Source: Bolinopsis microptera (Eukaryota > Ctenophora > Tentaculata > Lobata > Bolinopsidae). From it: a stretch of DNA of 64,000 nt. The position numbers and the translations under genes were made by a program. The notes under the pieces are model-generated. The model saw only the letters and a program-made list of their open reading frames with translations. It had not been told where the DNA came from and searched no databases. The stretch covers positions 13,715,628 to 13,779,627 of the forward strand of contig NC_087075.1 in NCBI RefSeq assembly GCF_026151205.1, written 5' to 3'. The first letter of the stretch is position 1. Each line of letters starts with the position of its first letter. Positions 8,101 to 60,607 of the stretch are shown here, piece by piece.

Positions 8101-11100
8101 CTAATGTTGCAGGCAGTGTTTACGGAGGAGCCCCAGCTAGCCAGGTGGGAGGATTCCCAGCAGTGCTGGAGGACTGATGGGTTTGAAGAGGTTAACTTTG
8201 ATGATATTAATGGGTCTATCTCCTTCAAGTCACAGTTTATTGGTCCCATCTGTACCTTCCAGGTGAGTTGGTAATTGGGAGGTAATTGGGAAGTAATTGA
8301 TATACATTCAATGATTAAAAATGATTGAGTTCCAATCATTGTCCAGTAATCAGGAAAGTTGTTTTCATAGCAATAATATTGGCAAATATTTCATGTTTCT
8401 CCTCTCTGGTGTACCACGAATATTGCTTTTAAAGCTGTCATTCTATCGAATCGCTTTCCAGTTTCATTTGGTTTGTCAACCACTTTAAATTAAAACCAAG
8501 TATATGTAACAATAGTTAATTATCTAATAATGTGGCTGGAGAGCAATTGAACAATCGTGGTTTTCGCATGTTCTTGACAAGTAACAACTGGCTTTTTTCT
8601 TTATATATCTCTGACATTATAATTTATCATGAATAGTAAGCTATGAACACGAAGTGCATCGCATCAATTTGAAGCGATTGTCGAATTTAAAGTTGCAATT
8701 ATAAAACTTCTTTTCCCTATACCAAACGCAAGGAAGTTATTCCATTAGGTCTAATTAAGCATTCATGGCATGGTCTTTAATTCATTGAAGTGTTAATATG
8801 CAAACAAGAGTCGATAAACATAGTATCTCTGTCGGAGAATGATGTTGTTTTCTTACTTTGACCACCAAAGTCACTCTTTCATAATATTTGTTCAGTAGCG
8901 CGCGAAAATACAAATTTAATAAAAGTATGTATTATTTTGCGCGTTGCTAGGGTAACCCATCTTTACATCTTGTCGATCGAAATTGTGGGATAATTTATTG
9001 CAAGGCTCAACCGATTAACAATTTTCAGAATTAATCATCACCTATAGACAGCATGAGAGTATGCCCTGCCATCTCGTCGTCTCGAAGTGATAATAACGAT
9101 TAACAAAACGTTAAGTTAAAAGTTCCCATCCCACATCGAGATTTCGGACGTTAGCCATAAGTGCAGGGTTTAGATAAGACCACCTGTGCAGTGATTATCA
9201 AAAAATGTAGTCGTACGAATCCGGTGATCTGGATTGGGGCTCCTATAAAAGTCTGGCAACTAAGCATAGTGTCAGCACTAAATTATTTGATGGTTGGCAA
9301 GCCATAGTTCTAGATAGACTAAAATCTAAGATTTTTTCTTCCAAAATATTTTGTAAACGGAATAAGACGGTTATTTCCACGGAGTCTGAGGACCTCAATG
9401 TCCTAAAAGAACATTTTATTATGACTAGCGTAGACAAAGCGAGTAATAATGTTTCCTTTGTCTGTAAGAAATATTATTTAGATAATTTACTGCATGAACT
9501 TTCTTCCACTAGTACTTATCAAGTTTCCACAGATTCTGAAGAAGATATTGTAAGAAGGCATGTGCAATTTTTCCTGAGGTTTAAGATTCCGGTAAATGAT
9601 CTTTCGGTACCATTTATGCACATGTTGCCGAAATTCCATAAACCGACCTTGGATTTCAGGTACATTGCTGCTGGGGTTAAATCTTCCACAAAAGTTCTTT
9701 CTAAGATCCTGAGTGTGGTATTTAAACTGCTTGGTACTACTTTAAAATACCAAGATAATTTTAATTTTAAGTTCTTAGACGCTTCTGGTTATTGGATTGT
9801 CAACAATAAAGACAAAGTGACATCTAACTTAAATTATCTTAATAATACCTGCTCAGCTAAGTCAGTATATTCGTTTGATTTTAAGAAACTTTACACCAAC
9901 CTTCCCCATGATAAACTTATTGAGAAGTTATCATCTTTGATTAAATTATGTTTTGAGGAAAAGAAACTTGATTTTATCAAAATCAACGACCAGTTTCGGG
10001 CAAGATGGTCGGGAGTTAATAAGACTAAGTGGTCTTTTACATGTAGTGACCTGATAGATATGTTTAAATTCTTAATGGATAATATTTATGTTAAGTTTCG
10101 AGGTGTGATCTACAGGCAGGTAATTGGTATCCCAATGGGATGTGATTGTGCCTCTCAGGTCGCTGACCTATTTCTATACTGGTACGAGCATGATTACATT
10201 ACATTGCAAGTTAAAAACAAGAACCCTGTGGTTCACACTTTGAAACATGCTAGTCGATATATTGATGATTTAACTACCCCTAATATCAGTCATAAGACTG
10301 TCGATATAATTTGCAAGGATATTTACCCAGTAGAGTTGAAGATTGTAGTCACAAACTCTAGCATTCTATCTACGACTTTTCTTGATTTAGACATTTATAT
10401 TACGAACAGTCGTTTCTACACTAAATTATATGACAAACGACGTGATTTCAGTTTTAAAGTCGTCACTTTTCCTAACCTTAAATCCAACGTACCTGTGAAA
10501 CCTTCATATGGAATATTTGTAGGTGAACTATATAGGATATGCAAATCCTCCTCTGCCCTCAGTAGTGAATGAATTTATTCATGAGGTTAAATTATTAATC
10601 GATAAACTGATCACCCAGAATTTTGAACGGAAAATCTTACATAGACATCTTAAATTATTTATTAACAGTCAACCAGCGTGCATCTTTAAACACTGGCACA
10701 ATTTCACAGTAAATGACTTCATGTAATTATATTGTGTGTGAGGCCAAACCTTGTAATTCCTTATGCATGTTACCTCGTCCGTGATCTATTCACTTCCCCC
10801 TTTGATCGTTTTGGAACAGTTTTATATCACGTTAACGATTCTTTGGCAGTTTATTATTTAGCTTTCTAGCAGTATATATTTTGTTTTCTATATTCTTTCA
10901 GACTTTTACTTAAGTCTAGTTATACATTACTTTATCATATTTTATCGAACTAAGGTGTAGTATTGCCAGATCCCAGTTCATTTTGTAACGGAGTTTTATA
11001 TTAACAGGAAACGATGTAACAGAGTCGATATATTTTAATGTTGCCATGGGGTGGCAAGTCCCCATACATCGTGGTCCGGTAGTTTCACTGCGTCTTAATA

Positions 11101-32002: not shown

Positions 32003-33197
32003 ATGAAGTGTTTTGTAGTTATGGTTACCCTGCTCGTTCTCTCACAGTCAGCTTCTCTCAACTCCAGAGGTTAGTTACGTTTAAACTTTCGGTAACTACT
32101 AGTAACCATGGTTACTTAGTGGTTACTTAGTGGTTACTTATTGGTTACTTAGTGGTTACTTAGTGGTCCAATATTAACAAATTTAATCGGGAAAATTTAA
32201 TTGCCAAAAATTTCTGAATCGATTCCACAAGTACACAATGACGAACGTCTCCAGCCGATATCAAACGCGAGTTGTTCATCACTGATATGAATATTGCCTC
32301 CTAGTCCTAATCTCCCAATAACTTTAATCTACTTCAGAGTCAATGGACGAAACGATAATGGAAAATGTTGAACAAGAGGTTGAAGCTGGAGAGGTTGCAG
32401 AGGAAGAGGCACGAGTTTACAAGGGATATAACGGTGGTAAGTCAACTGTCATCCTTATTACTTTATTAGTACATATTGAGTTTTTTTCTTTCTTAAACTG
32501 CGTGCAGTCTTTTCAAGATTTTTTTTTGCCTAAAATATTCCGGCGCGATAAAGTTCTCGCATTTCGCTAATTTTAGCTGGAAAGTTTAAAAGTTTCTTTT
32601 TGTAATCCCGAATCAGTTTGACATCATTAAGTATGAACTGTTAAATTATACGTAGAACATACTTTATACAAGTTGGATTTAACTTGGCTTTTTTCAGGAA
32701 ACCGTGTCTGGTACGGATAGAGAATAAGATGGCCGGTGTCAAAACCCTTCACCATGACATTGTCATGGTGATATCACCCGTCATCACGAGAACAATTTGA
32801 TGACAAAACTTGGTCCTTGCTTCCAACCCAACGCCACTGCTTTGAACGAGCGAGGAAATTTCTTTTTTTGATCTTGACTTCGAACAGTTTTAATTCTAGT
32901 TTATCAATTTGAGATGATTTCCTTAACAATTCAAGGACAGTGTCATAGCTAAGCTTGGACAAAGACGGTTTTTAAAATTTTTAATGTGTTTAATCGTTGA
33001 CCTTAAGGTAAAAGTCGTAACCTTTTTTTCGTGCAGGGCGTTCATCTTAAACACGATTAATACAATTTATCAAGTTTCATACAAGATGCAAGAGTATCGT
33101 TTCTTTTTTTCGAGATGTAAGCTAATTTGAAGTTATCAATTTTGCAGCATGTATCTGCAAGTGTGGAAAATTGATTCAAGCTAAATACCAGTATTGA
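32003..33197 (+). CDS. Small secreted peptide precursor with two alternative last exons
   Basis: Exon 1 (32,003-32,069) encodes a signal peptide, MKCFVVMVTLLVLSQSASLN. Exon 2 (32,338-32,436) encodes a very acidic segment (MENVEQEVEAGEVAEEEA) followed by RVYKGYNG. Its phase-1 donor can join a short exon at 32,698-32,720, ending GNRVWYG-stop (62 aa total), or an exon at 33,148-33,197, ending ACICKCGKLIQAKYQY-stop (71 aa). Both acceptors have good pyrimidine tracts. The layout of signal peptide, acidic spacer and short C-terminal peptide with a terminal Gly fits a neuropeptide precursor with C-terminal amidation. An acidic-pro/cationic-mature antimicrobial peptide is the other option. I do not recognise the family. 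A poly(A) signal at 33,384 suits the second form. Intron 1 has a small ggttacttagt tandem repeat near 32,110-32,165. Confidence 0.6.
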
Positions 33198-33383
33198 GAA
33201 GTCGACCTGTAAATGTGACAAGTTTTTTCTTCTTCATGTTTGGTAAAAATGAATTTTCATCAGTACTAAATTATAAAAATGGAAAAGAAAGTAAAAATTA
33301 CAGCCATAATGTTGACAATTTATGTTGGAATAATTTATAAAATGTAATATTAAGAAAGTAAACCGAATACTTGAAGTGTTGCC

Positions 33384-33389
33384 AATAAA
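33384..33389 (+). terminator. Poly(A) signal of the peptide gene
   Basis: AATAAA lies 187 bp after the stop of the distal last exon. No AATAAA was seen between the proximal last exon and this point. Confidence 0.5.
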
Positions 33390-33583
33390 ATACTAATTAT
33401 TAATTAAAATGATATGATACGAGTGCCTACGTGGTGAAACTAAAAATTTCAGCAGAAATTTAAGAAGTAATTAATAGAACAGAATAAAATAAAAGCCTTT
33501 AAATTGTAGCTTATACTCTTATAATAGTTGACATGACCTGCAGTCCTACGGTATTATTCCTTGTATTCCACGCATTCCCCTCG

Positions 33584-36500
33584 AAACGAAACGAAACGAA
33601 ACACAGTACTTACTACCCCACTTCTATGCGACAAAGATGTTAAATAAAATATAACTATATATATAAACAAAAGCTCTAAGAAACAGATAGTGAACAAAGT
33701 AAACATTTCTGTCCCCTAATCTTTCTCACACAAAAGTCATGCGATTTGCATACTTCTCCATTTAACTCTATTTTGAGCGATTAAAGTTAAATAGTTTAAA
33801 TCACATAAATTATTTAACGATAATTTTCGAACACTAAGGTCGTGTAGAATCAGTGAGAAAAGGTTTGACTGCGGTCTTCCACGCCGCCCTTGGAGCTGTA
33901 AGGTGTTAACAGCAAAAACAAGCGACGAATAGGCTGGACCATCTGTAGGCCCACGCAGTACATGTCCGAGCATCCTCCAACGACTACGAGCCACTTTAGC
34001 TGACAATGGTTCGCTATTGCAGCGTTTATACAAGTTCTTGTTGGAAATGATGTGAGGGTATTTGTAATTCAAAATTGATCGCAGATGACGTCTGTGAGCA
34101 ATATCTAGTTTTTCCAATACTGATTTAGGGGCAGCCCAGCAAGATGAATTGTACATTAAAACGGATACTACCAGAGCCTCATACAACAGAAGCCTCTTGC
34201 TCAGAGGGATCTTATGGTTCCAAGCTTTCTTGTATTTGTTAAACGCGGCATATCCCAGACATATCCTTCTAGAGATGTCCTCCTTACTACAAAGCATGGA
34301 GCCAAGCGTGATACTCTTTCTCCAGAGCTCGTTCCCTGCAATTGGCTTACCCTGATCGTCTTTAGCTCCCTTTTCAGCTAAGTACACATGAGTGAAATCA
34401 GTTTTGTCTTCGTTAACGAAGAGATTCCAATCTTTAAGGACTTCTGTTGCAATAGGCAACAGCTCCCTCAAATTGTCTTCATCTTCATCATTGAAGTCGA
34501 TATCATCAGCATACTCACTGTCAAGTGGAAGACCAATATCGGTGATAGGTGGGTTAGGCCTATTCATTGCAGTTTCAAGCCTGTTACGGAGGTCACGCAA
34601 GGCACCCGCTAAGACAAGTGTGAACAAACATCCAGACAGACAGTCACCTTGGAATGCACCGAGAAAACTCTGGAATTCAGCAGACAGTGTACCGTTGATG
34701 TTGACTTTGAGCTTGGTGTTGGAAAGCAAAAGTCTTACCAAACGGACTTCGTCATCATCACAGCCACACTCAACAAGAAGATCGAGGATGGTAGATCGTC
34801 GTATAGTGTCAAAGGCACTAGACATATCGATCCCCATACGATGGTATTCCCACCTCTTCCTCTGGACAACTGATAACATCACACGCTGGCACCATACAAT
34901 GTCAGCACATGATCTACCCTGCTTGTAAGCACATTGCCATGGACCAGTGAAGGCATTGACTTTATTCTCAATTCTCTTCAAGGTTGCCATTGAAAGAATC
35001 TTTCTAACAGCATTTGAGAGAGTGAGGGGTCGTAGATTCTTCACTGGACCAATGGGCTTATTTGGCTTCTGTAAGGGGGTAATGTTTGCCTGTCCAATGG
35101 GGTCAAGGTAGGAATTGGTCTCGAAGCTTCTATTGATAATGTCTGCAAAACGTCTGTGTACTGATCCAGTAGAATACTTGAGAAGCTCGTTAGGAATTTC
35201 ATCTGGGCCGTTAGCTCGACCATTTTTGAGACTTCTGGCAGCTGATCCGATTTCTTCACTAGTGAATGGCTTAACTAGTGGGCGAGGAGGTCCTACAAAA
35301 GGTTCTAAAGGTGCTTCATCACGAGTAAGTTGTTGCTCAAGGTACTTAGCAACTACGGCAGCTTTACCAGTGTCTGTTGCAATATTGCACCCTTTCTCAT
35401 CATGAACACCAATACTAGAAGGGGCTTTAGGTAAGTTCAGGGTTCGAACAGCTTCAAACATTTTCTTACTATCTGTTGTTGAACTGATGGTATTACAGAT
35501 AGCATCAGCAGCAGCTGATCGTATGTTAGAAAGTCTCTGCTTGATCTGATTGGTGAGGCAGTTAATAGATGATCTAAGTGAGGTTCTGTCTAAAGACTGG
35601 TTATCATTAAGCTGCTGTCTCAACAAGTAACGCTGGCTAGATAAGTTTTTCACCTCATCATCGTCGCTGCGATTACGTTTCCTGTGTCTGATGACACCAA
35701 TTGACGATTTTGCAGCATCCTTTATGGACTCAAGTAAGCCATTCAAGTCTGAATTTGGATCCAGAGCAGAAACAGTGTTACTTAAGTTATCATCTAAGGA
35801 TTGACGATATTTCACCTGAATGGTGGGGTTCGAGGTGAGTTCAGAGGTGTTGAACTTTAAGGATGACTTGGAGTGGCGTTTATAGCAAAGACAGATGTCC
35901 TTAAAGTCTACTCTAGTGACAACAAATCTGTGATCAGAGTATGTCAAAGTGCCTGCATAAGATCTAGAATCTTGTAGCATTGGCTTCGGCCTACTCCGAC
36001 ACAGGATGAAATCGATCTGAGAATAGACCGGGATCGTCTTTTTACTATTTCGCCCGGCACTCCAGTCCTTCCTCCAGCCAGTGTAGGTGGTCGTATGTCG
36101 AGCAGGATGATAAAAACCAGTGTTGGAGGCAAAGAGGTCAAATTCTGATAACAAGTCTAACAAGTTTTCCCCCATATCGTTGCGCAAACCCATACCATGT
36201 TTACCCATGAAACGACCAAAACCAAAGTCCTTATCTGAAGTAGTCATTTTTCCCAAATTTGAATTAAAATCCCCCAAAACAAATATCTCAACATTAGCAG
36301 GGACGTTTAGAGCGTCCCTAACTTGGCCGTAGAAATTAATCAACAGTTGTTGATCATTTTCTGCAAGTTTCTTGTGTGGCCCATATACATTGACCACCCT
36401 ACATTTGATAAATTTTCTTGATTTTGTAGGGAGTTCTAGGTCCAAAAGGCTTACTCTATCACTGATACTGTTCCAGCATACCACATAGTCAATAAATCGG

Positions 36501-36890
36501 GGACTGATAACAAAACCGAGTCCATAGTGCCGGCCATTTTTCTGCTCAAACAATAAGAGTTTGTATCCGTTGCTAAGACTGCAAGAATCCGGTTTTACAA
36601 CCTTAGTCTCCTGAATAGCGCAGATATCTATGCCGTACCGTACACAATCGGTACCCAGTTGCTCCCGTTTGCTGTGGATGTCGTCTGGATCATCACAAGA
36701 ACCGAGGCCACGTATGTTAAAGGTGGCGAAGCTGATGAGGAGTGTAGCAAACAGGGATCGTCCTGTAGCTGAGGTAAACATTACGGAGGGCGATGTTGTC
36801 GTCTCTCCGCCGCTGGCGTTACCCATACGGTCCATCTAAATATAACTAAATAATTTAAACAACACGGTGCCCATGTCTAAGCGCGCGGCT
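33584..36890 (-). mobile_element. APE-type LINE with intact single ORF and (GTTTC)n tail
   Basis: The unit contains the ORF at 33,737-36,835 and a ~150-bp 3' UTR. On the + strand its 3' end is the repeat cgaaacgaaacgaaac at 33,584-33,602, i.e. a (GTTTC)n tail in element orientation. Short pentanucleotide tails are typical of CR1/L2/RTE-like LINEs rather than poly-A LINEs. The 5' end is uncertain. No target-site duplication was resolved. Confidence 0.75.
33737..36835 (-). CDS. LINE endonuclease/reverse transcriptase, 1,032 aa, intact
   Basis: The N-terminal apurinic endonuclease domain shows SFATFNIRGLGS (35-46), IQETKV (74-79), VLGDFNSN (186-193), IDFILCR (274-280) and TYSDHRFVV (298-306). 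The reverse transcriptase follows: NGRANGPDEIPNELL (538-552), GIDMSSAFDTIR (668-679), GAFQGDCLSGCLF (726-738) and SEYADDIDF (773-781) with the catalytic YADD. The C-terminal region (RWRMLGHVLR) is typical of APE LINEs. The start ATG at 36,835 leads directly into the endonuclease, so this is a one-ORF element or an ORF2. It has no stop or frameshift over 3.1 kb, implying a young insertion. The clade is not assigned. It lies antisense to the neighbouring host genes. Confidence 0.85.
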   Translation of the reverse strand: MDRMGNASGGETTTSPSVMFTSATGRSLFATLLISFATFNIRGLGSCDDPDDIHSKREQLGTDCVRYGIDICAIQETKVVKPDSCSLSNGYKLLLFEQKNGRHYGLGFVISPRFIDYVVCWNSISDRVSLLDLELPTKSRKFIKCRVVNVYGPHKKLAENDQQLLINFYGQVRDALNVPANVEIFVLGDFNSNLGKMTTSDKDFGFGRFMGKHGMGLRNDMGENLLDLLSEFDLFASNTGFYHPARHTTTYTGWRKDWSAGRNSKKTIPVYSQIDFILCRSRPKPMLQDSRSYAGTLTYSDHRFVVTRVDFKDICLCYKRHSKSSLKFNTSELTSNPTIQVKYRQSLDDNLSNTVSALDPNSDLNGLLESIKDAAKSSIGVIRHRKRNRSDDDEVKNLSSQRYLLRQQLNDNQSLDRTSLRSSINCLTNQIKQRLSNIRSAAADAICNTISSTTDSKKMFEAVRTLNLPKAPSSIGVHDEKGCNIATDTGKAAVVAKYLEQQLTRDEAPLEPFVGPPRPLVKPFTSEEIGSAARSLKNGRANGPDEIPNELLKYSTGSVHRRFADIINRSFETNSYLDPIGQANITPLQKPNKPIGPVKNLRPLTLSNAVRKILSMATLKRIENKVNAFTGPWQCAYKQGRSCADIVWCQRVMLSVVQRKRWEYHRMGIDMSSAFDTIRRSTILDLLVECGCDDDEVRLVRLLLSNTKLKVNINGTLSAEFQSFLGAFQGDCLSGCLFTLVLAGALRDLRNRLETAMNRPNPPITDIGLPLDSEYADDIDFNDEDEDNLRELLPIATEVLKDWNLFVNEDKTDFTHVYLAEKGAKDDQGKPIAGNELWRKSITLGSMLCSKEDISRRICLGYAAFNKYKKAWNHKIPLSKRLLLYEALVVSVLMYNSSCWAAPKSVLEKLDIAHRRHLRSILNYKYPHIISNKNLYKRCNSEPLSAKVARSRWRMLGHVLRGPTDGPAYSSLVFAVNTLQLQGRRGRPQSNLFSLILHDLSVRKLSLNNLCDLNYLTLIAQNRVKWRSMQIA

Positions 36891-43700: not shown

Positions 43701-45379
43701 TGTATAGCTTCAGCCAGATTGTACAAAGCAATGTCGTTGAAGAATAAAACCTTGAAACACTGCGTTTTTAGCTTCAAACTTTGATAAACTGCTTCTTCTA
43801 AACTGCTTCTAAACGGTTTCTTCTAAACAGCTTCTAAACGGCTTCTAAACAGTTTCTAAACGGCTTCCAAACGGTTTCTAAACGGTTTCTAAACGGCTTC
43901 CAAACGGTTTCTAAACGGTTTCTAAACAATCTTCTTTCTGTGACTCAGACGACTACACGAGGTGTGAGCAGTGTGACCAGTTCCTGCCAGCTTGTCACGT
44001 TCACTTGGTCGGAGTGGACGCTCTGGAGGTCGGAGAGGAGATGATGAAGAGGTACAACCTGAACAAACTCAGGGAGGAAACCTATCTGGAAACATCGTGA
44101 GTTTGAGGAATTGTTTTGTGTGCAGCCATGCGGGTACATTCTTTTTCCTTAATTAATCAATTTTATAATTATTTTAAGTTTAAAACCAAAATATTCCATT
44201 TTTATTGATTGACGATGCTGTTCTCGGAACACTAACCACTGTTCTTCTGTCTCTTGTTGTGTAATTCCAACCCCTTTGTTAATACCTTAGATGTGTGCTG
44301 GACGGTATACCTAAGATCCACAGTAGTGTGTCAACCTACAACCATCACGTCAGAAAGGAACCGTCTTATAGGCCCTTCAATGTGACATTTGTAAAACAAG
44401 GTGATGTCAGTTCATTTTATACTTTTTATAAGCTGTTTATACAAGGTGATCTCAGTTCATTTTATACTTTTTATAAGCTGTTTATACAAGGTGATCTCAG
44501 TTCATTTTATACTTTTTATAAGCTGTTTATACAAGGTGATCTCAGTTCATTTTATACTTTTTATAAGCTGTTTATACAAGGTGATCTCAGTTCATTTTAT
44601 ACTTTTTATAAGCTGTTTATACAAGGTGATCTCAGTTCATTTTATACTTTTTATAAGCTGTTTATACAAGGTGATCTCAGTTCATTTTATACTTTTTATA
44701 AGCTGTTTATACAAGGTGATCTCAGTTCATTTTATACTTTTTATAAGCTGTTTATACAAGGTGATCTCAGTTCATTTTATACTTTTTATAAGCTGTTTAT
44801 ACAAGGTGATCTCAGTTCATTTTATACTTTTTATAAGCTGTTTATACAAGGTGATCTCAGTTCATTTTATACTTTTTATAAGCTGTTTATACAAGGTGAT
44901 CTCAGTTCATTTTATACTTTTTATAAGCTGTTTATACAAGGTGATCTCAGTTCATTTTATACTTTTTATAAGCTGTTTATACAAGGTGATCTCAGTTCAT
45001 TTTATACTTTTTATAAGCTGTTTATACAAGGTGATCTCAGTTCATTTTATACTTTTTATAAGCTGTTTATACAAGGTTTGTTCCTTTGGTAATTAATGTG
45101 AAGTACTCGTTATTACAGATTAGTGAAGATATATAATGAGTTTTGAGATGAGCTTATAGTTAGCCAAACTCAACTTTTTGCAAGCAGAGCTTATAAAAAA
45201 AGCAAGTTTACTGTAAATATTTCAGGATCGGGGACAGAAAATCGCTGGAACAACATCTGAACAATCATTTCACGGAACACAATCTCCTGTACGACTCCTC
45301 CGCATCTTTCCCAAGCAAAAACAGGGTTACAATTCGAGAAAACGGAGCTGATTCTCATTCGTACAATCTTATATCGTGA
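40764..45379 (+). CDS. C2H2 zinc-finger protein gene with degenerate fingers (5' exons missing)
   Basis: Exons: 40764-40842, 41222-41333, 41628-41736, 43949-44096, 44291-44400 and 45226-45379. Finger 1 spans the first intron (CLQCRRRCNTIEELELHRRW followed by H). Finger 2 is CSICDKTFTTFEIFKSHVRK followed by H. Both are exact C-X2-C-X12-H-X3-H. Finger 3 (CKYCEEKFSTLRDLHQHTSL, then Y) has lost its last His. The fourth exon has a CEQC pair. In the last two exons the finger is split as FNVTFVKQ and DRKSLEQHLNNHF, with both Cys replaced by Val. The exon 44,400 donor is phase 1, but the frame with finger-like sequence in the last exon needs phase 2, so the join is one base out; as read it gives a short tail ending at a stop near 45,260. 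The gene could be a pseudogene, or could use unseen splicing. Upstream exons are not identified. Confidence 0.55.
40959..41160. mobile_element. ~200-bp MITE in a zinc-finger gene intron
   Basis: The terminal ~36 bp (tataattgctgaacgattac and on) at 40,963-41,000 is inverted at 41,117-41,155 (gtaatcgttcaacaattata). No coding sequence. Confidence 0.7.
41405..41495. repeat. Imperfect inverted repeat in a zinc-finger gene intron
   Basis: attttgctgttttctgacaa is facing ttgtcagaaaacg and aaaacggcaaaat. It is a short hairpin, possibly a relic MITE. Confidence 0.45.
41969..42908. mobile_element. Foldback element, family 2, second copy (internally deleted), with poly-C end
   Basis: The ends AGTTCACCCTGATTTTTTGT are inverted at 42,860-42,885, and sequence is shared with 16,587-17,880 over both arms. 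The right arm is shorter here. It is followed by 24 C, matching the poly-C side of the other copy. It sits in the 2.2 kb intron between zinc-finger gene exons 41,628-41,736 and 43,949-44,096. Confidence 0.85.
43787..43925. repeat. TTCTAAACGG-type short tandem repeat before an exon
   Basis: About a dozen degenerate 11-13-bp units (ttctaaacggc, ttccaaacggt) end 20 bp before the acceptor of the 43,949 exon. Confidence 0.8.
44401..45075 (+). repeat. 45-bp tandem array, 15 copies, each with a splice-donor consensus
   Basis: The array starts exactly at the GT of the 44,400 donor and comprises 15 units of 45 bp (gtgatctcagttcattttat and on, to gctgtttatacaag). Every junction reads CAAG|GTGAT, and the last reads CAAG|GTTTG. 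The copies are essentially identical except for the first (gtgatg). Because 45 is a multiple of three and the unit has no stop, the exon frame stays open through the array (repeated GDLSSFYTFYKLFIQ) to a TAA at 45,090. The array is most simply intronic. Confidence 0.9.
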
Positions 45380-51029: not shown

Positions 51030-51988
51030 ACCTCCTGCTCTTATCATATTATCGTCATTCATGTCAGAATCTTTTTAAATTTCAGGGATTACAAATATGG
51101 GCCAGATTCCCTGAAAGTTTTGTAAAATTTCGTCGATTACAGTAATTGATGTGGCGTGCCATTTCCTTTCTTCAACTATTTTCGTCACAAAGTTAGAACA
51201 CAATGAGCGAAGAGCTGATATACCTCAGGTAAAAGAAAGAAAGTAAAACATAGGTAAAGTTAGCGGGTATGCTATATTCCATAATCGAGGCCCGATTACT
51301 GCAAATGAGTTTGCGTACAGCGTTTGACTTTGACCACGCTGACTCCTGGACTTGGCTAGACTCGGGACAACTCAGCTCCTTTTTGGGGATGTCTGAGTGT
51401 CTCTGAGAACTGAATGTTGACATCATTTGGGTATCCAGGCATCTGCCATGTAGGATTTTCCATACATGAATGATCATGTACAGTTCTCGTTTTCTGTGAA
51501 AACGAGGCTTTTTATAGTTTCTGCCAATAGTCGAGGTGTTGGACGCTGTGGATCCTCGATGTTAATGTGCGCTGAGACCCCCCCCCCCCCTCCCGGCCAG
51601 TTTCTGGATATCTGCATTTTTGCAAGGGTTCCATAGGGGGCAGCAGTATTAGCGATAGCTCCTGACAAGAAATTTATAAATGGTCATCACTAGTGTGACT
51701 TCATTTCCGCAATTTGAAAAAGTGGATTATCTTCACGACATCAATTTTCGCGATTTTAAATGCAATTTGATAAAAAGAATAAGTTCACGACACATTAAAT
51801 ATTTTGGTATTTTAAATTAATCACCAAAACAATTCTTCGCACAAGTGAATGGTACTTACTTAAAGACCCCAGCGGAGTGATAGGAGGATGTACAATGTAC
51901 ATTGATACTGTTGTCCTGAAGCGATCCCAGCCAAACCTACTCAAAGTACTCGAAGTACTAAGTACTTTAACAATAATGTTTGTTACAG
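51030..51988. other. Spacer upstream of the GCC2/GCC3 gene
   Basis: One or more 5' exons must lie here or further upstream. An open stretch at about 51,850-51,920 (EWYLLKDPSGVIGGCTMYID) may be an exon, but its donor is not clear. A poly-C run of 11 lies near 51,580. Confidence 0.3.
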
Positions 51989-54726
51989 ATCCCTCATGCT
52001 CGGCTGGAAGTTTCATTAGGGGAAGTGGATGTATGCAATGTAGAAAGAACACTTTCAGTGCTGCTGGAGCTTCTTCATGTTCTGATTGTCCTGAGGACAA
52101 GGTCTCAGCTGCCGGATCTACAAAGATTGACGACTGCGTTTATGGTAAGAAAGATACTATCTTCCTTATAAACACATAATGATATAGTGATGCGATGTGA
52201 ACAACTAATCAATCATTCTTTGAATTCAATTTAAGCAGTGAAATTGTGATAATCATTTTAGATTATCATTTAAATAGCGTTAGGTTCTTTTTACACTGCT
52301 AATGGTATTTGTTACAGCTCCCTGCTCGGCTGGAAGCTACATGACGGGAAGTGGATGTAAGCAATGTAGAAAGAACACTTTCAGTGCTGTTGGTGCTTCT
52401 TCGTGTTCTGATTGTCCTGAGGACAAGGTCTCAGCTGCCGGTTCTACAAAGTTTGACGACTGCGTTTATGGTAAGAAAGATACTATCTTCCTTATAAACA
52501 CATAGTGAATAGTGATATAGTGATGCGATGTGAACAATTTAACAATCATTCCTTGAATTCAATTTAAGCAGTGCAATTGTGAGAATCTTTTTAGATTATC
52601 ATTTAAATAGCGTTAGGTTCTTTTTACACTGCTAATGGTATTTGTTACAGCTCCCTGCTCGGCTGGAAGCTACATGACGGGAAGTGGATGTAAGCAATGT
52701 AGAAAGAACACTTTCAGTGCTGTTGGTGCTTCTTCGTGTTCTGATTGTCCTGAGGACAAGGTCTCAGCTGCCGGTTCTACAAAGTTTGACGACTGCGTTT
52801 ATGGTAAGAAAGATACTATCTTCCTTATAAACACATAGTGAATAGTGATATAGTGATGCGATGTGAACAATTTAACAATCATTCCTTGAATTCAATTTAA
52901 GCAGTGCAATTGTGAGAATCTTTTTAGATTATCATTTAAATAGCGTTAGGTTCTTTTTGCACTGCTAATGGTATTTGTTACAGCTCCCTGCTCGGCTGGA
53001 AGCTACATGACGGGAAGTGGATGTAAGCAATGTAGAAAGAACACTTTCAAATTTGCTGGAGCTTCTTTCTGTTTTGATTGTCCTGAGGACAAGGTCTCAG
53101 CTGCCGGATCTACAAAGATTGACGACTGCGTTTATGGTAAGAAAGATACTATCTTCCTTATAAACACATAGTGATATAGTGATGCGATGTGAACAGCTAA
53201 TCAATCATTCTTTGAATTCAATTTAAGCAGTGCAATTGTGAGAATCTTTTTAGATTATCATTTAAATAGCGTTAGGTTCTTTTTACACTGCTAATGGTAT
53301 TTGTTACAGCTCCCTGCTCGGCTGGAAGCTACATGACGGGAAGTGGATGTCAGCAATGTGGAGAGAACACTTTCAGTGCTGCTGGAGTTTCTTCATGTTC
53401 TGATTGTCCTGAGGACAAGGTCTCAGCTGCCGGATCTACAAAGATTGACGACTGCATAGGTAAGAAAAATACTATCTTCCTTATAAACCTCACCACTCCG
53501 AAGCTACTACTCTACTAACTGTGAGGATTGTTACTGATGGGGAGGGATGGATGAATCAACCCACCCCCAGTATGATAAGGGTTAACAAAGAAGTTCGATA
53601 ACGAAATTCCGCTATAATGGTGTCAGTCTTCTTGATTACTACCCAAAGGAGAACAGTAAGAACAATCTTATCTAATAAATTTTAGATTAAAAATTGGCGT
53701 ATAAGATTTACCAAGTACTCAAAAATTACAGCTAGTTCTTTTTGATAAGAAAATTTTGCAGAGTACCTAGCCCCAAGCTGCTTCACAATGGGCTTACGAA
53801 CATCCGGGACTGTATTAAGAGAAGTTAATTACTCCTCGGAAGAAAACTGCATGAACCTTTGTATAAAAACGGCGGGGTATGTTTCGATCATTTTACATAC
53901 TTTAACAGTCGAACAAATCTAACTGCTATCTTTCAATGTCTAACTGCATCTTCAGTCTTTATAGTGCACACTATTTGATTTAATTTTGTGTCTGCTGTTT
54001 GAATCTCACAATCCAAAGAGAATAACGATCTTTCAATAATTTGTATCATTGATATTAATTGCAGCTGTATGGCAGCGGTTACTAGTCCGTTATCTTGGCG
54101 TAAATCCTCATGTTACGCTATCGGAGACTACACTCTGTCCAGGGGCGGAGGTTGGGCCACAGCTGGAAGAAAATGCTTCGACACAACTTCAACCGGCCTT
54201 GCTTCTGGTAATAAGGGGGAGGGACAGGGAGAGGGACAGGGAAATCATAACGCACTTTACGCAATTTTCGACTCACGGACCAACTATTATTATTGCACCG
54301 CCCTATTACTAAATTAATAACCGTGCATCAGAATTGTGAAAACTTATTTGAATGGTACTCCATGGGTTGTGAGAAGTTATAAATATATTTATTTGAAGGA
54401 ATTATTTGGACAAAGAAATTAGGCAAATTTCTGAGCCGTTACAGTGCTGGAACCGCCAAGTACAGTACTCTTTTGGTGGCTCAGGACGAATGTCTCAAAC
54501 GATCTGGTGAGTTCATACTTGCGGTTATATATTATATTAATCATATCGATTAGATAATTTATTAGGCAGAATTTCTCTGGTAAGAGATAACCTTGTCATA
54601 AATACAATATTCTCCCACTAGATTGTGGAGGTATAACATACGAATCCTTCTCCAAAAAGTACTCTCTACGAAAAGGAACCGAATTCAAGGATAGTCCCTC
54701 CGGCCTCGAAATCTCCTGGATACATG
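51989..54726 (+). CDS. Extracellular protein: five GCC2/GCC3 (ephrin-receptor-like) repeats plus PAN/Apple-like region, partial
   Basis: Five phase-1/phase-1 exons (51989-52144, 52318-52470, 52651-52803, 52984-53136 and 53310-53459) each encode one ~50-residue module: CSAGSYMTGSGCKQC, then TFSAVGASSCSDCPEDKVSA, then DDC. Six cysteines and the C-x2-C spacing match GCC2/GCC3 (ephrin-receptor-like) modules. They join in frame to 53762-53876 (EENCMNLCIKTAG), 54065-54207 (CMAAVTSPLSWRKSSCYAIG), 54423-54506 (AQDECLKRS) and 54622-54726 (CGGITYESFSKKYSLRKG). These carry the paired-Cys pattern of PAN/Apple domains. The N-terminus, any signal peptide and the C-terminus are not found. Such modules are typical of secreted or cell-surface adhesive proteins. 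Symmetric exon phases explain the easy repeat expansion. Confidence 0.7.
52145..53309 (+). repeat. Tandem exon-intron duplication, ~333-bp unit
   Basis: The units starting at 52,318 and 52,651 are 333 bp long and differ by about one base over exon and intron together. The flanking units (51,989, 52,984 and 53,310) are slightly more diverged. A stretch of the same intron, without an exon, recurs at about 55,505-55,585. Confidence 0.9.
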
Positions 54727-56911: not shown

Positions 56912-59900
56912 TCAAGTGGAAGACGATGTTGGTGTCTTTTTCGGATTTCTGATGCGATGACAGCTGCTGAGAAACTTGCCCAGTTCTTCTATGTGGGCTG
57001 AATCCATCATGTCTTTGTAGTTCCTTTGAAGTAAAAGCCCTTTGAGGTCATCTGAGAGAGAAGATCGTACTGAGTGGTACATGGGGCACTCAGTAAGGCA
57101 GTGTTCCTCGTCTTCAATAATCGTGCCTTCAAAGAAGGGAAGGTATTCGAAGCCGAGAACGTGATCCCTATCGCAGCAGAATCTGCATGCTCTTGGCCAT
57201 ACTCCGGCCTCCTTCGTGTAACGCCCTCGTTCTATCATCAGGTCGTGGCTGCTTGAGCGGATTTTAGCTGTATTCGTTCGGAATTGCCTGCTCTTCAGAT
57301 TGAGGTACTGCTCTTCTCCAAATTCCTCCTTGATTTGGTTGTAGAACTGCATCTTGGTTTGCGATCCCAGATCCACCCTCCAGTCACTGATAAAGACATC
57401 CCTCATGGTGCCATGAGCTGCTTCTGTTTCATAATGAGCCACAGAGCTAAGTTTCTCGTACCAGGAGAGGTTAAGATTTTTCTGTTCCTGAAACGCTTGA
57501 GATACTAAAAAATTTACACTGTTCATCTCAGAAGAAGCTCTGGAAAGTCTTCCAAAGTATCTGAGGCATTGTGGCAGAACTGAGAGGGCCCAGGGCATCC
57601 TTCCGGTATCCCCGTAACAGAAGTTGTTGTTAGTTTTCTTGTGCACACCCAGTACCCATTTCAGCATTTTGAGGTGTGTTGTCTCAAGACTGTCTTTTGC
57701 TGCAACTTTTGATAGGTTGTGTCTTTGGCTGGGTTCACGCGCCATTTCTTTCATGAGGTGAGTCGAGGGTAGCCATATCTGACAGGCGTAAGTTGCTACC
57801 GGTTTCACCAGACAGTCAATTAGCTTTAGCATGGTTTTGGTGGTCAGAGCTCTGGTGTCTACCATGCGTTTTATCGAAAAGAATGCTCGAAGCGCCTTCT
57901 TCCTAAGTTCGTTCATGGCGCATTTAAAAGATCCATTGAGACTGAGCTGGATACCTAGATAGCAGTAGGACCTTGTTGGAGAGATGTCGAGCTGTCCAAG
58001 CTTGAACCCGTACGAGCAGTTTAGCACCCGCGAGCTTGAGTTGAAGACCATTATTTTAGTCTTATCAATGTTGATAGATAGCTCCCATTTGCTTGCAAAT
58101 TCATTTAGGCAGTCAAGCTCTTTCTGAAGGCTTTGGTGGTCGAGAGCTAAAAGGATGAGATCGTCGGCCCAGAGCAGGTGGTTGACCGGGAAGCCATTAA
58201 GTTCAGGGACAGAGAGATCTTCTAGGGCTGCTAGATAGATGGAGAGGTCGTAGATGTATATTTTAAACAATTCAGGAGACATTGGATGCCCTTGCTCTGT
58301 TCCAATGGTGACATCAATGGTCTCCGATAGTTTTTGGATCAGTTTGATGCGGGTCACCGAGTTGCTGTACATGTTCTTAAGGCAAGCGAAGAAGTTCCCT
58401 CCGATACCAAGGTGATTGAGTTTATACATGAGTGCTTCTCTGCACACCGTATCGAACGCTTTCCGGTAGTCAACAAAACAAGCAAACACTCTCTTTTTGA
58501 GCTTTTTCGTGTATTTCTCAATGATTGTGGTAATTGTAAGGATGTGATCCGAGCACTGTGCACCAGCTCTGAAGCCAAGTTGGTGGGGGAAATCGGGGCA
58601 GATAACTTTGCGGAAGTCGATAAGTCTTTCAAGGAGAAGAGAAGCAAATAGCTTCCCTAGACAGCTTCCAACAGTTATTGCCCTATAGTTGTCAGGGTTC
58701 TGTTTGTCGCCCTTCTTGTGGAGAGGGGTGGTTATCGAACAATTCCATGGGTAAGTCCCCTGTTCCAGGCAGCCGTTGAACAACTTGAGAAGAACTTTCC
58801 TTAGGCAAAGTTTGGAGTTCTTGAGCATCTCGTTCGATATTAGGTCCAGTGATACGCTCTTGTTGTTTTTGAGTTTGTTGATCACCTTTTCAAGCTCTTG
58901 TAGAGTGAACTCCATGTTAAGATTTTCCACTTCAGTTGGTAGGTCAGGGTGGCTGCTCCCATCATTGCTTGCGTTGTGGGCTTGAAGTTCACGGTGGGAT
59001 GGATCCTTGCACTTTTGGTTGTAGAGGTCGTTGAAGAATTTGTGAAAAGCAAATAGGTCGTACAGATCGAACGTCTCAGGATCTCTACAGGAGGACGAGA
59101 GATCTTTCAGAGCAGACCAGTTGATGTCATTGCCATTGTTTATTTTCTCGTTCAGTTGAAAGAGATATGCGCCTTTTTTAGATCGAACTTGAACCCTGTA
59201 TTCCTTTTTTCGGAGGTAAAACTTAGCCCGAGTAGGTTCCACTAGCATGGGATCAATGTAGGGGTTGTTCTTTACTCTTTCGATCTTGCAAACTTGACGT
59301 TTTGCCTTTCTGCAGTCCCAATCGAACCATTTGTTTTTGTTAGTGTGAAGACGGCCACTTTTTTGGGTAGTGACCTGGCTGGCTAGGTTAATGTAGGTTG
59401 TAATCACAGAGTCATTGTATTTTCGAATGTCTTCGGGGCAGGTGATGTCATTTGCTAGGAGCGATTCGACCTTCTGCATGAATTGGGCATCATTCTGGGC
59501 CGACTTGAACTTTTCTGATGTACCAAACCCAGTGCTAGTGTCTTTGGTCCACTTGAAGGGCTTCGGCACTGGTGCTAGTTTCCGTTCACGTTCTTTATAG
59601 AGGTTGTCATCAAGAAGATTCACCCCATGGTTTGTGGTGAGGGCGGTTGATATCGGTCTGTGGTCTGAGTAAGGTGTGATATCGCCCACATGGAAGAACC
59701 TAACCCGATGGTGGATATCTCGTGAGACACAGATGTAATCAACAGTGCTGGCTCCGTGACGTTGAATGCATGTATGGCTACCGAAAATGTCTCCAATAGT
59801 CCTTCCATTAAGAATTATCATCCCTGCTGTTTGGAGAAGCTCAATGAACGGTTTGCCATTCGAATTCAAAGTTCGGTCCTGATTGTTTCTTGGTGTCAAG

Positions 59901-60607
59901 GCTGTTATGAATTGAGGAGGGTCGAGATCGACATGTATATTCCTAGATTCGCAGGGAATAAGAAAATCTTTCAGAGTACCGGTCCGTGCGTTCATATCTC
60001 CAAGTATGGCGGCATCTTCTGTGTCGGGAATCCTGGATAGGCACTCCTCAAGTTGTTCGCAGGTAGTGATGTATTCCTCGGTATTCGAACGTATACGTTT
60101 TTTATACGAACCGTGTGCTGGCGAGTCGTATACATTGATAAGGTTTAGGTCCTTGTCAAGATTAAAGTATTTGGCTCTTAGCTTGACGATGAGTATGTCG
60201 TCACAATCTGGAACGTGGACTCTAACAGCTCCAGCTGCTAGGTGTTTATGAATCGCCGTACATACACCGCCTGAGTTTGTTCCTGTCCTGTTAGCATTGA
60301 AGCATTTGAAGTCACGTAAAGAAACTTGCCCTTTAGTTTCTTGCAAGCAGATAACGTCGTGACTGTTAAGGAGCTTCTGAACTTCATCGATTTCAAATTT
60401 GATACCTTCAAACTTGTCACGCTGATGGTTGATGTTCCAGCTCATCAGCCTAAGGCAATTGCTTGTGTCCCGGTTTTTACTCATCTTTGAAACGGTTCGA
60501 GCTGCGTTTTTGACGAGGATTTCCATCGTGGCTCTGGTGAGGAATGCGCATCGTCTTCTTAAGTCCTTCACGAAGGCTGACGTAGAGCATTTTTTCGCCT
60601 CTGTCAT
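56912..60607 (-). CDS. LINE ORF2: endonuclease/reverse transcriptase, 1,231 aa
   Basis: The start ATG at 60,607 lies inside ORF1, in another frame. The endonuclease domain shows LMSWNIN (54-60), CLQETKG (87-93), ILGDMNART (201-209) and YSDHRPIS (313-320). The RT shows NNKSVSLDLISNEML (581-595), CFVDYRKAFDTV (710-721), GTEQGHPMSPELF (769-781) and LLWADDLILL (811-820), with catalytic ADD. The C-terminus (about 1,130-1,175) has a Cys/His cluster: CRFCCDRDH, then EEHCLTECPMYHSVR. The frame is complete. The protein would nick target DNA and copy the element RNA in place. It lies antisense to the GCC2/GCC3 gene immediately upstream on the + strand. Confidence 0.88.
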   Translation of the reverse strand: MTEAKKCSTSAFVKDLRRRCAFLTRATMEILVKNAARTVSKMSKNRDTSNCLRLMSWNINHQRDKFEGIKFEIDEVQKLLNSHDVICLQETKGQVSLRDFKCFNANRTGTNSGGVCTAIHKHLAAGAVRVHVPDCDDILIVKLRAKYFNLDKDLNLINVYDSPAHGSYKKRIRSNTEEYITTCEQLEECLSRIPDTEDAAILGDMNARTGTLKDFLIPCESRNIHVDLDPPQFITALTPRNNQDRTLNSNGKPFIELLQTAGMIILNGRTIGDIFGSHTCIQRHGASTVDYICVSRDIHHRVRFFHVGDITPYSDHRPISTALTTNHGVNLLDDNLYKERERKLAPVPKPFKWTKDTSTGFGTSEKFKSAQNDAQFMQKVESLLANDITCPEDIRKYNDSVITTYINLASQVTTQKSGRLHTNKNKWFDWDCRKAKRQVCKIERVKNNPYIDPMLVEPTRAKFYLRKKEYRVQVRSKKGAYLFQLNEKINNGNDINWSALKDLSSSCRDPETFDLYDLFAFHKFFNDLYNQKCKDPSHRELQAHNASNDGSSHPDLPTEVENLNMEFTLQELEKVINKLKNNKSVSLDLISNEMLKNSKLCLRKVLLKLFNGCLEQGTYPWNCSITTPLHKKGDKQNPDNYRAITVGSCLGKLFASLLLERLIDFRKVICPDFPHQLGFRAGAQCSDHILTITTIIEKYTKKLKKRVFACFVDYRKAFDTVCREALMYKLNHLGIGGNFFACLKNMYSNSVTRIKLIQKLSETIDVTIGTEQGHPMSPELFKIYIYDLSIYLAALEDLSVPELNGFPVNHLLWADDLILLALDHQSLQKELDCLNEFASKWELSINIDKTKIMVFNSSSRVLNCSYGFKLGQLDISPTRSYCYLGIQLSLNGSFKCAMNELRKKALRAFFSIKRMVDTRALTTKTMLKLIDCLVKPVATYACQIWLPSTHLMKEMAREPSQRHNLSKVAAKDSLETTHLKMLKWVLGVHKKTNNNFCYGDTGRMPWALSVLPQCLRYFGRLSRASSEMNSVNFLVSQAFQEQKNLNLSWYEKLSSVAHYETEAAHGTMRDVFISDWRVDLGSQTKMQFYNQIKEEFGEEQYLNLKSRQFRTNTAKIRSSSHDLMIERGRYTKEAGVWPRACRFCCDRDHVLGFEYLPFFEGTIIEDEEHCLTECPMYHSVRSSLSDDLKGLLLQRNYKDMMDSAHIEELGKFLSSCHRIRNPKKTPTSSST

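Follow-up and report, generated by a model that had tools for sequence, protein, structure and literature searches.

We found that the gene at positions 32003 to 32720 of the window (the whole 64,000-nucleotide stretch of DNA analyzed here; C4:13715628-13779627) almost certainly encodes, judging from the letters of its product, the already published ctenophore neuropeptide VWYamide (VWYa), and that it is the counterpart of ML02736a of Mnemiopsis leidyi. It was found once in the genome. The initial annotation had called the gene unrecognised, whereas its product corresponds to the published VWYa peptide; the gene is thus already known, and the alternative terminal exon that had been proposed for it is unsupported. 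A ctenophore neuropeptide that was identified by mass spectrometry is now placed on a genome, and its coding sequence is split in such a way that the last splice junction falls inside the mature peptide, as in the NPWa gene of the same genome.

The VWYamide precursor gene

Four segments with GT/AG borders and compatible phase can be read at the locus, namely 32003-32069 and 32338-32436, followed by either 32698-32720 or 33148-33197. Their coordinates were correctly given by the initial annotation. The features are as follows.

32003..32069, + strand: coding part of exon 1, with the signal peptide region MKCFVVMVTLLVLSQSASLNSR (putative signal peptide, judged by eye); donor GAG/GTTAGT
32338..32436, + strand: exon 2, with the acidic spacer up to EEE and then ARVYKGYNG, which are mature residues 1-9; donor GTG/GTAAGT, phase 1
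32698..32720, + strand: coding part of exon 3, which supplies the GNRVWY end, the amide-donor Gly, and the TAG stop; acceptor score 14
33148..33197, + strand: proposed alternative tail, ACICKCGKLIQAKYQY-stop, readable in phase; acceptor score 11
33384..33389, + strand: possible poly(A) signal, the earliest AATAAA downstream of the exon 3 stop

When exons 1, 2, and 3 are joined, they give a 62-aa precursor, MKCFVVMVTLLVLSQSASLNSRESMDETIMENVEQEVEAGEVAEEEARVYKGYNGGNRVWYG. Its N-terminus is hydrophobic (MKCFVVMVTLLVLSQSAS, by eye), as expected of a signal peptide, and is followed by the spacer segment ESMDETIMENVEQEVEAGEVAEEE, in which 11 of the 24 residues are acidic and none is basic. The run EEE immediately precedes ARVYKG, where an acidic cleavage site would be placed. 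The precursor closes with ARVYKGYNGGNRVWY, a Gly, and the stop, and these letters are identical, in 15/15 residues across the exon 2/3 junction, to those of VWYa of Bolinopsis mikado (ARVYKGYNGGNRVWYa), a peptide whose mass-spectrometric identification included fragment spectra for its endogenous and synthetic forms (Hayakawa et al. 2022, PMC9525235). Exon 2 encodes the first nine residues of the mature peptide, and the intron interrupts codon 10. Because the published peptide crosses the boundary between exon 2 and exon 3, it supports the 32436-to-32698 splice. Furthermore, the donors of exons 1 and 2 each agree with the consensus MAG/GTRAGT at 7/9 positions.

The likeness to VWYa of B. mikado and to ML02736a takes in the 15 mature residues, the Gly as the amide donor, the acidic residues ahead of the peptide, and the signal peptide; no difference from B. 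mikado VWYa was seen, in a comparison that covers the mature peptide only. The B. mikado study names ML02736a of Mnemiopsis as the VWYa gene and reports that the major cleavage sites in B. mikado are acidic residues (PMC9525235), which fits the EEE ahead of the mature peptide. The prediction of a secreted preprohormone with an acidic spacer, a Gly serving as the amide donor, and an amidated peptide ending in Tyr is borne out by this identity with the B. mikado peptide.

In B. mikado, neurons are reported to be stained for VWYa, and in larvae the peptide is reported to expand the oral epithelium and raise the body volume (PMC9525235). The nerve net of Vallicula multiformis is likewise described as containing VWYa (PMC10826244), and an antibody against ML02736a labels neurites of the Mnemiopsis nerve net (PMC7617566; mentioned too in PMC10730927). 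For this antibody, PMC7617566 cites Sachkova et al. 2021.

In the animal studied here, the signal peptide would take the VWYa precursor into the secretory pathway, and a cut after the acidic run EEE would free ARVYKGYNGGNRVWYG. The terminal Gly would then be converted to the amide, yielding ARVYKGYNGGNRVWYamide, and VWYamide may be released by neurons of the subepithelial nerve net. Other authors demonstrated the amidation, neuronal presence, and larval effect in B. mikado, and the identity of the peptide suggests that they apply here as well.

Could the gene instead encode an antimicrobial peptide with an acidic pro-piece? An acidic pro-piece and a cationic end resemble the way in which some antimicrobial precursors are built. 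However, we give practically no credence to this reading: the mature form does not differ from a neuronal peptide whose effects on larvae were tested (PMC9525235), and the neuronal staining reported for B. mikado (PMC9525235) and V. multiformis (PMC10826244) contradicts it.

An NPWamide-type gene in the same genome

The second B. mikado peptide considered here, NPWa, has the sequence IGSDIKLVPGAGGNPWa (PMC9525235). When searched in the genome, it gave one match, on contig C13, with an E value of 0.2, which is weak owing to the short query.

Contig C13, around 11682749-11682793, - strand: NPWa-type neuropeptide precursor with a three-part exon layout as in the VWYa gene

The locus can be joined to a full precursor, MKQSMALLLTILGVIVLAQSKSILVESEDVLLGGAEELEADNSVDLEEELIGSDIKLAPGGGNPWGRK, from a signal exon, an acidic exon, and a last exon. 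The acidic exon ends with EEELI plus one base, the last exon reads GSDIKLAPGGGNPWGRK-stop, the borders are GT/AG, and the last intron is in phase 1. The two genes have in common the signal exon, the acidic exon, and a short last exon that carries the amidated end behind a phase-1 intron, and in both, the last junction falls within the mature peptide. On the other hand, they differ in the peptide sequence, in the phase of the first intron (2 in the NPWa gene and 1 in the VWYa gene), and in the RK that follows the Gly in NPWa. Compared with IGSDIKLVPGAGGNPW of B. mikado, the NPWa found here, IGSDIKLAPGGGNPW, can be aligned with one residue exchanged and one lacking. This divergence suggests a relative, and the presence of an NPWa-type precursor with this layout indicates that the animal is a ctenophore, probably a Bolinopsis.

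The proposed second tail at 33148-33197

Could the same acidic precursor also receive a second end by splicing? The initial annotation had proposed mutually exclusive C-terminal exons from which one gene would make two unrelated short peptides. In this arrangement, some transcripts would lack exon 3 and have exon 2 joined to 33148 (exon 4), which would lead to a second secreted product ending in ARVYKGYNGACICKCGKLIQAKYQY. Exons 1 and 2 joined to 33148-33197 give a 71-aa product that ends in ...RVYKGYNGACICKCGKLIQAKYQY. The phase fits, the acceptor (TTTTGCAG) is usable, three Cys lie within 5 residues of the tail, and an AATAAA follows 187 bases downstream of the tail stop. Nevertheless, we regard this skipping of exon 3 as very unlikely. 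The tail carries no amidation Gly, and the number of its Cys residues is odd. If cut at the same place, both products would start with the ARVYKGYNG of exon 2 and would hence not be unrelated.

The acceptor of the second tail is also the weakest of the three that were scored. On a hand-made consensus scale, not trained on this species, that considers pyrimidines, a C or T before the AG, the lack of a close AG, and a G after it, exon 2 scores 12 and exon 3 scores 14, compared with 11 for the 33148 segment. When the AGs in 32460-34000 were scored in the same manner, 12 sites reached at least the exon 4 score, and 4 of the 12 (32470, 32888, 33148, and 33528) gave phase-matched tails that were 16 or more residues long. 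Because 32470 lies only 33 bases past the donor, an intron ending there is unlikely.

Tails of this length are expected by chance. In random stretches of 2 kb, with the acceptor search limited to the first 1 kb, a tail of 16-60 residues stood behind an equally good acceptor in 1856/2000 cases. Tails with at least three Cys were uncommon (238/2000), which favors the second tail, and those that had, in addition, a poly(A) signal no more than 250 bases away numbered 143/2000. The stretches were taken window-wide from both strands, could overlap, and took in coding sequence and repeats; 2000 were drawn afresh for each setting, and the counts are therefore a rough yardstick. The Cys-bearing tail, about which the question was asked post hoc, is mildly unusual only (7-12%).

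The NPWa locus served as a control. Within the roughly 1.8 kb of the locus that follow its acidic exon, there were 18 acceptors of this quality, 1 of which was that of the true exon. Behind six others lay closed tails 16 residues or longer, and another tail was still open where the scan ended. Thus, tails of such length, but without the three Cys, also follow the NPWa acidic exon. The six closed tails match exon 4 in length but not in Cys content, as none of them (0/6) has more than one Cys, a point that speaks for the second tail. Taken against the random stretches and this control, a second terminal exon did not do better than chance. Consequently, of the two tails, the one ending in NRVWYG exceeds chance, as its joined product agrees with a peptide sequence obtained from a relative, whereas the CICKCG tail amounts to a readable frame after an AG, and the proposal of mutually exclusive exons rests on an open frame of chance length.

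Neither the Pfam nor the PDB search was informative. No Pfam family matched the 71-aa product, and for the 62-aa product, Pfam returned only KdpA, with an E value of 0.14, below the cut-off. The PDB search, carried out for the 71-aa product only, gave three matches (E 0.43, 2.1, and 2.1). A literature search with four short pieces of the products returned PMC9525235 and a paper on scorpion venom (in which AKYQY occurs once); it gave no relevant paper with the letters of the second tail. Our literature search found no work on alternative splicing of Mnemiopsis neuropeptide precursors, and the strings "splic" and "isoform" are absent from the main text of PMC9525235. If true, the second tail would show that splicing diversifies peptides in a nervous system that branched off early; it is not clearly favored over chance here. 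A further, Cys-bearing isoform of the VWYa gene, made by joining exon 2 to 33148 and allowing the ctenophore nerve net to exchange the amidated end for ACICKCGKLIQAKYQY, is highly improbable.

Since neither AATAAA nor ATTAAA occurs downstream of the VWYa stop (32720) until 33384, the segment 33148-33197 is probably part of the transcript's 3' UTR rather than a coding exon. The simplest VWYa transcript would end shortly past 33384, with exon 4 within its 3' UTR. Similarly, the first poly(A) signal of the NPWa gene lies 788 bases after the stop. Alternatively, exon 4 might be a real exon of the 3' UTR, in which case exon 3 would extend to a donor after 33007 (AAG/GTAAAA) and be joined to 33148, with VWYa still being the product. 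This donor agrees with the consensus at 7/9 positions, the same as the donors of exons 1 and 2, and the intron would measure 140 bases. We nonetheless consider a spliced UTR unlikely, because a continuous 3' UTR accounts for the sequence in fewer steps.

Genome-wide matches and other features of the window

Among the best-scoring candidates, neither protein nor DNA searches of the genome revealed a convincing second copy of the VWYa gene. The sole protein match outside the gene had an E value of 4.2, was located on contig C8, and covered residues 2-35 only. The second tail and the DNA of 32700-33420 each matched one place in the genome, again among the best-scoring candidates. When the gene itself was searched against the genome, 72 non-self matches were obtained, all within query positions 67-175, which correspond to intron 1 with its minisatellite. 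This minisatellite (32109-32167) consists of 5.4 copies of the 11-base unit TGGTTACTTAG, relatives of which are widespread on C4 and other contigs.

Long open frames with Exo_endo_phos and RVT_1 domains were observed at 33737-36835 (- strand) and 56912-60607 (- strand) and represent LINE-type elements, the former of which has its 3' end about 350 bases past the possible VWYa poly(A) signal, on the opposite strand. A 453-aa open frame at 9211-10572 (+ strand) matched RVT_1 with an E value of 3.2e-5, below the curated cut-off, and no endonuclease match was found in this frame.

The window also contains two further tandem arrays. At 51979-53488, a 333-base unit is present in 4.6 copies at 94%, and a Cys-rich open frame (51799-52179) covers the start of this repeat and has weak matches to Ephrin_rec_like/TNFR that stay below the cut-off; the 333-base repeat possibly represents tandemly duplicated exons. 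At 44396-45077, a 45-base satellite is present in 15.2 copies at 99%, and two + strand frames are open through it simultaneously.
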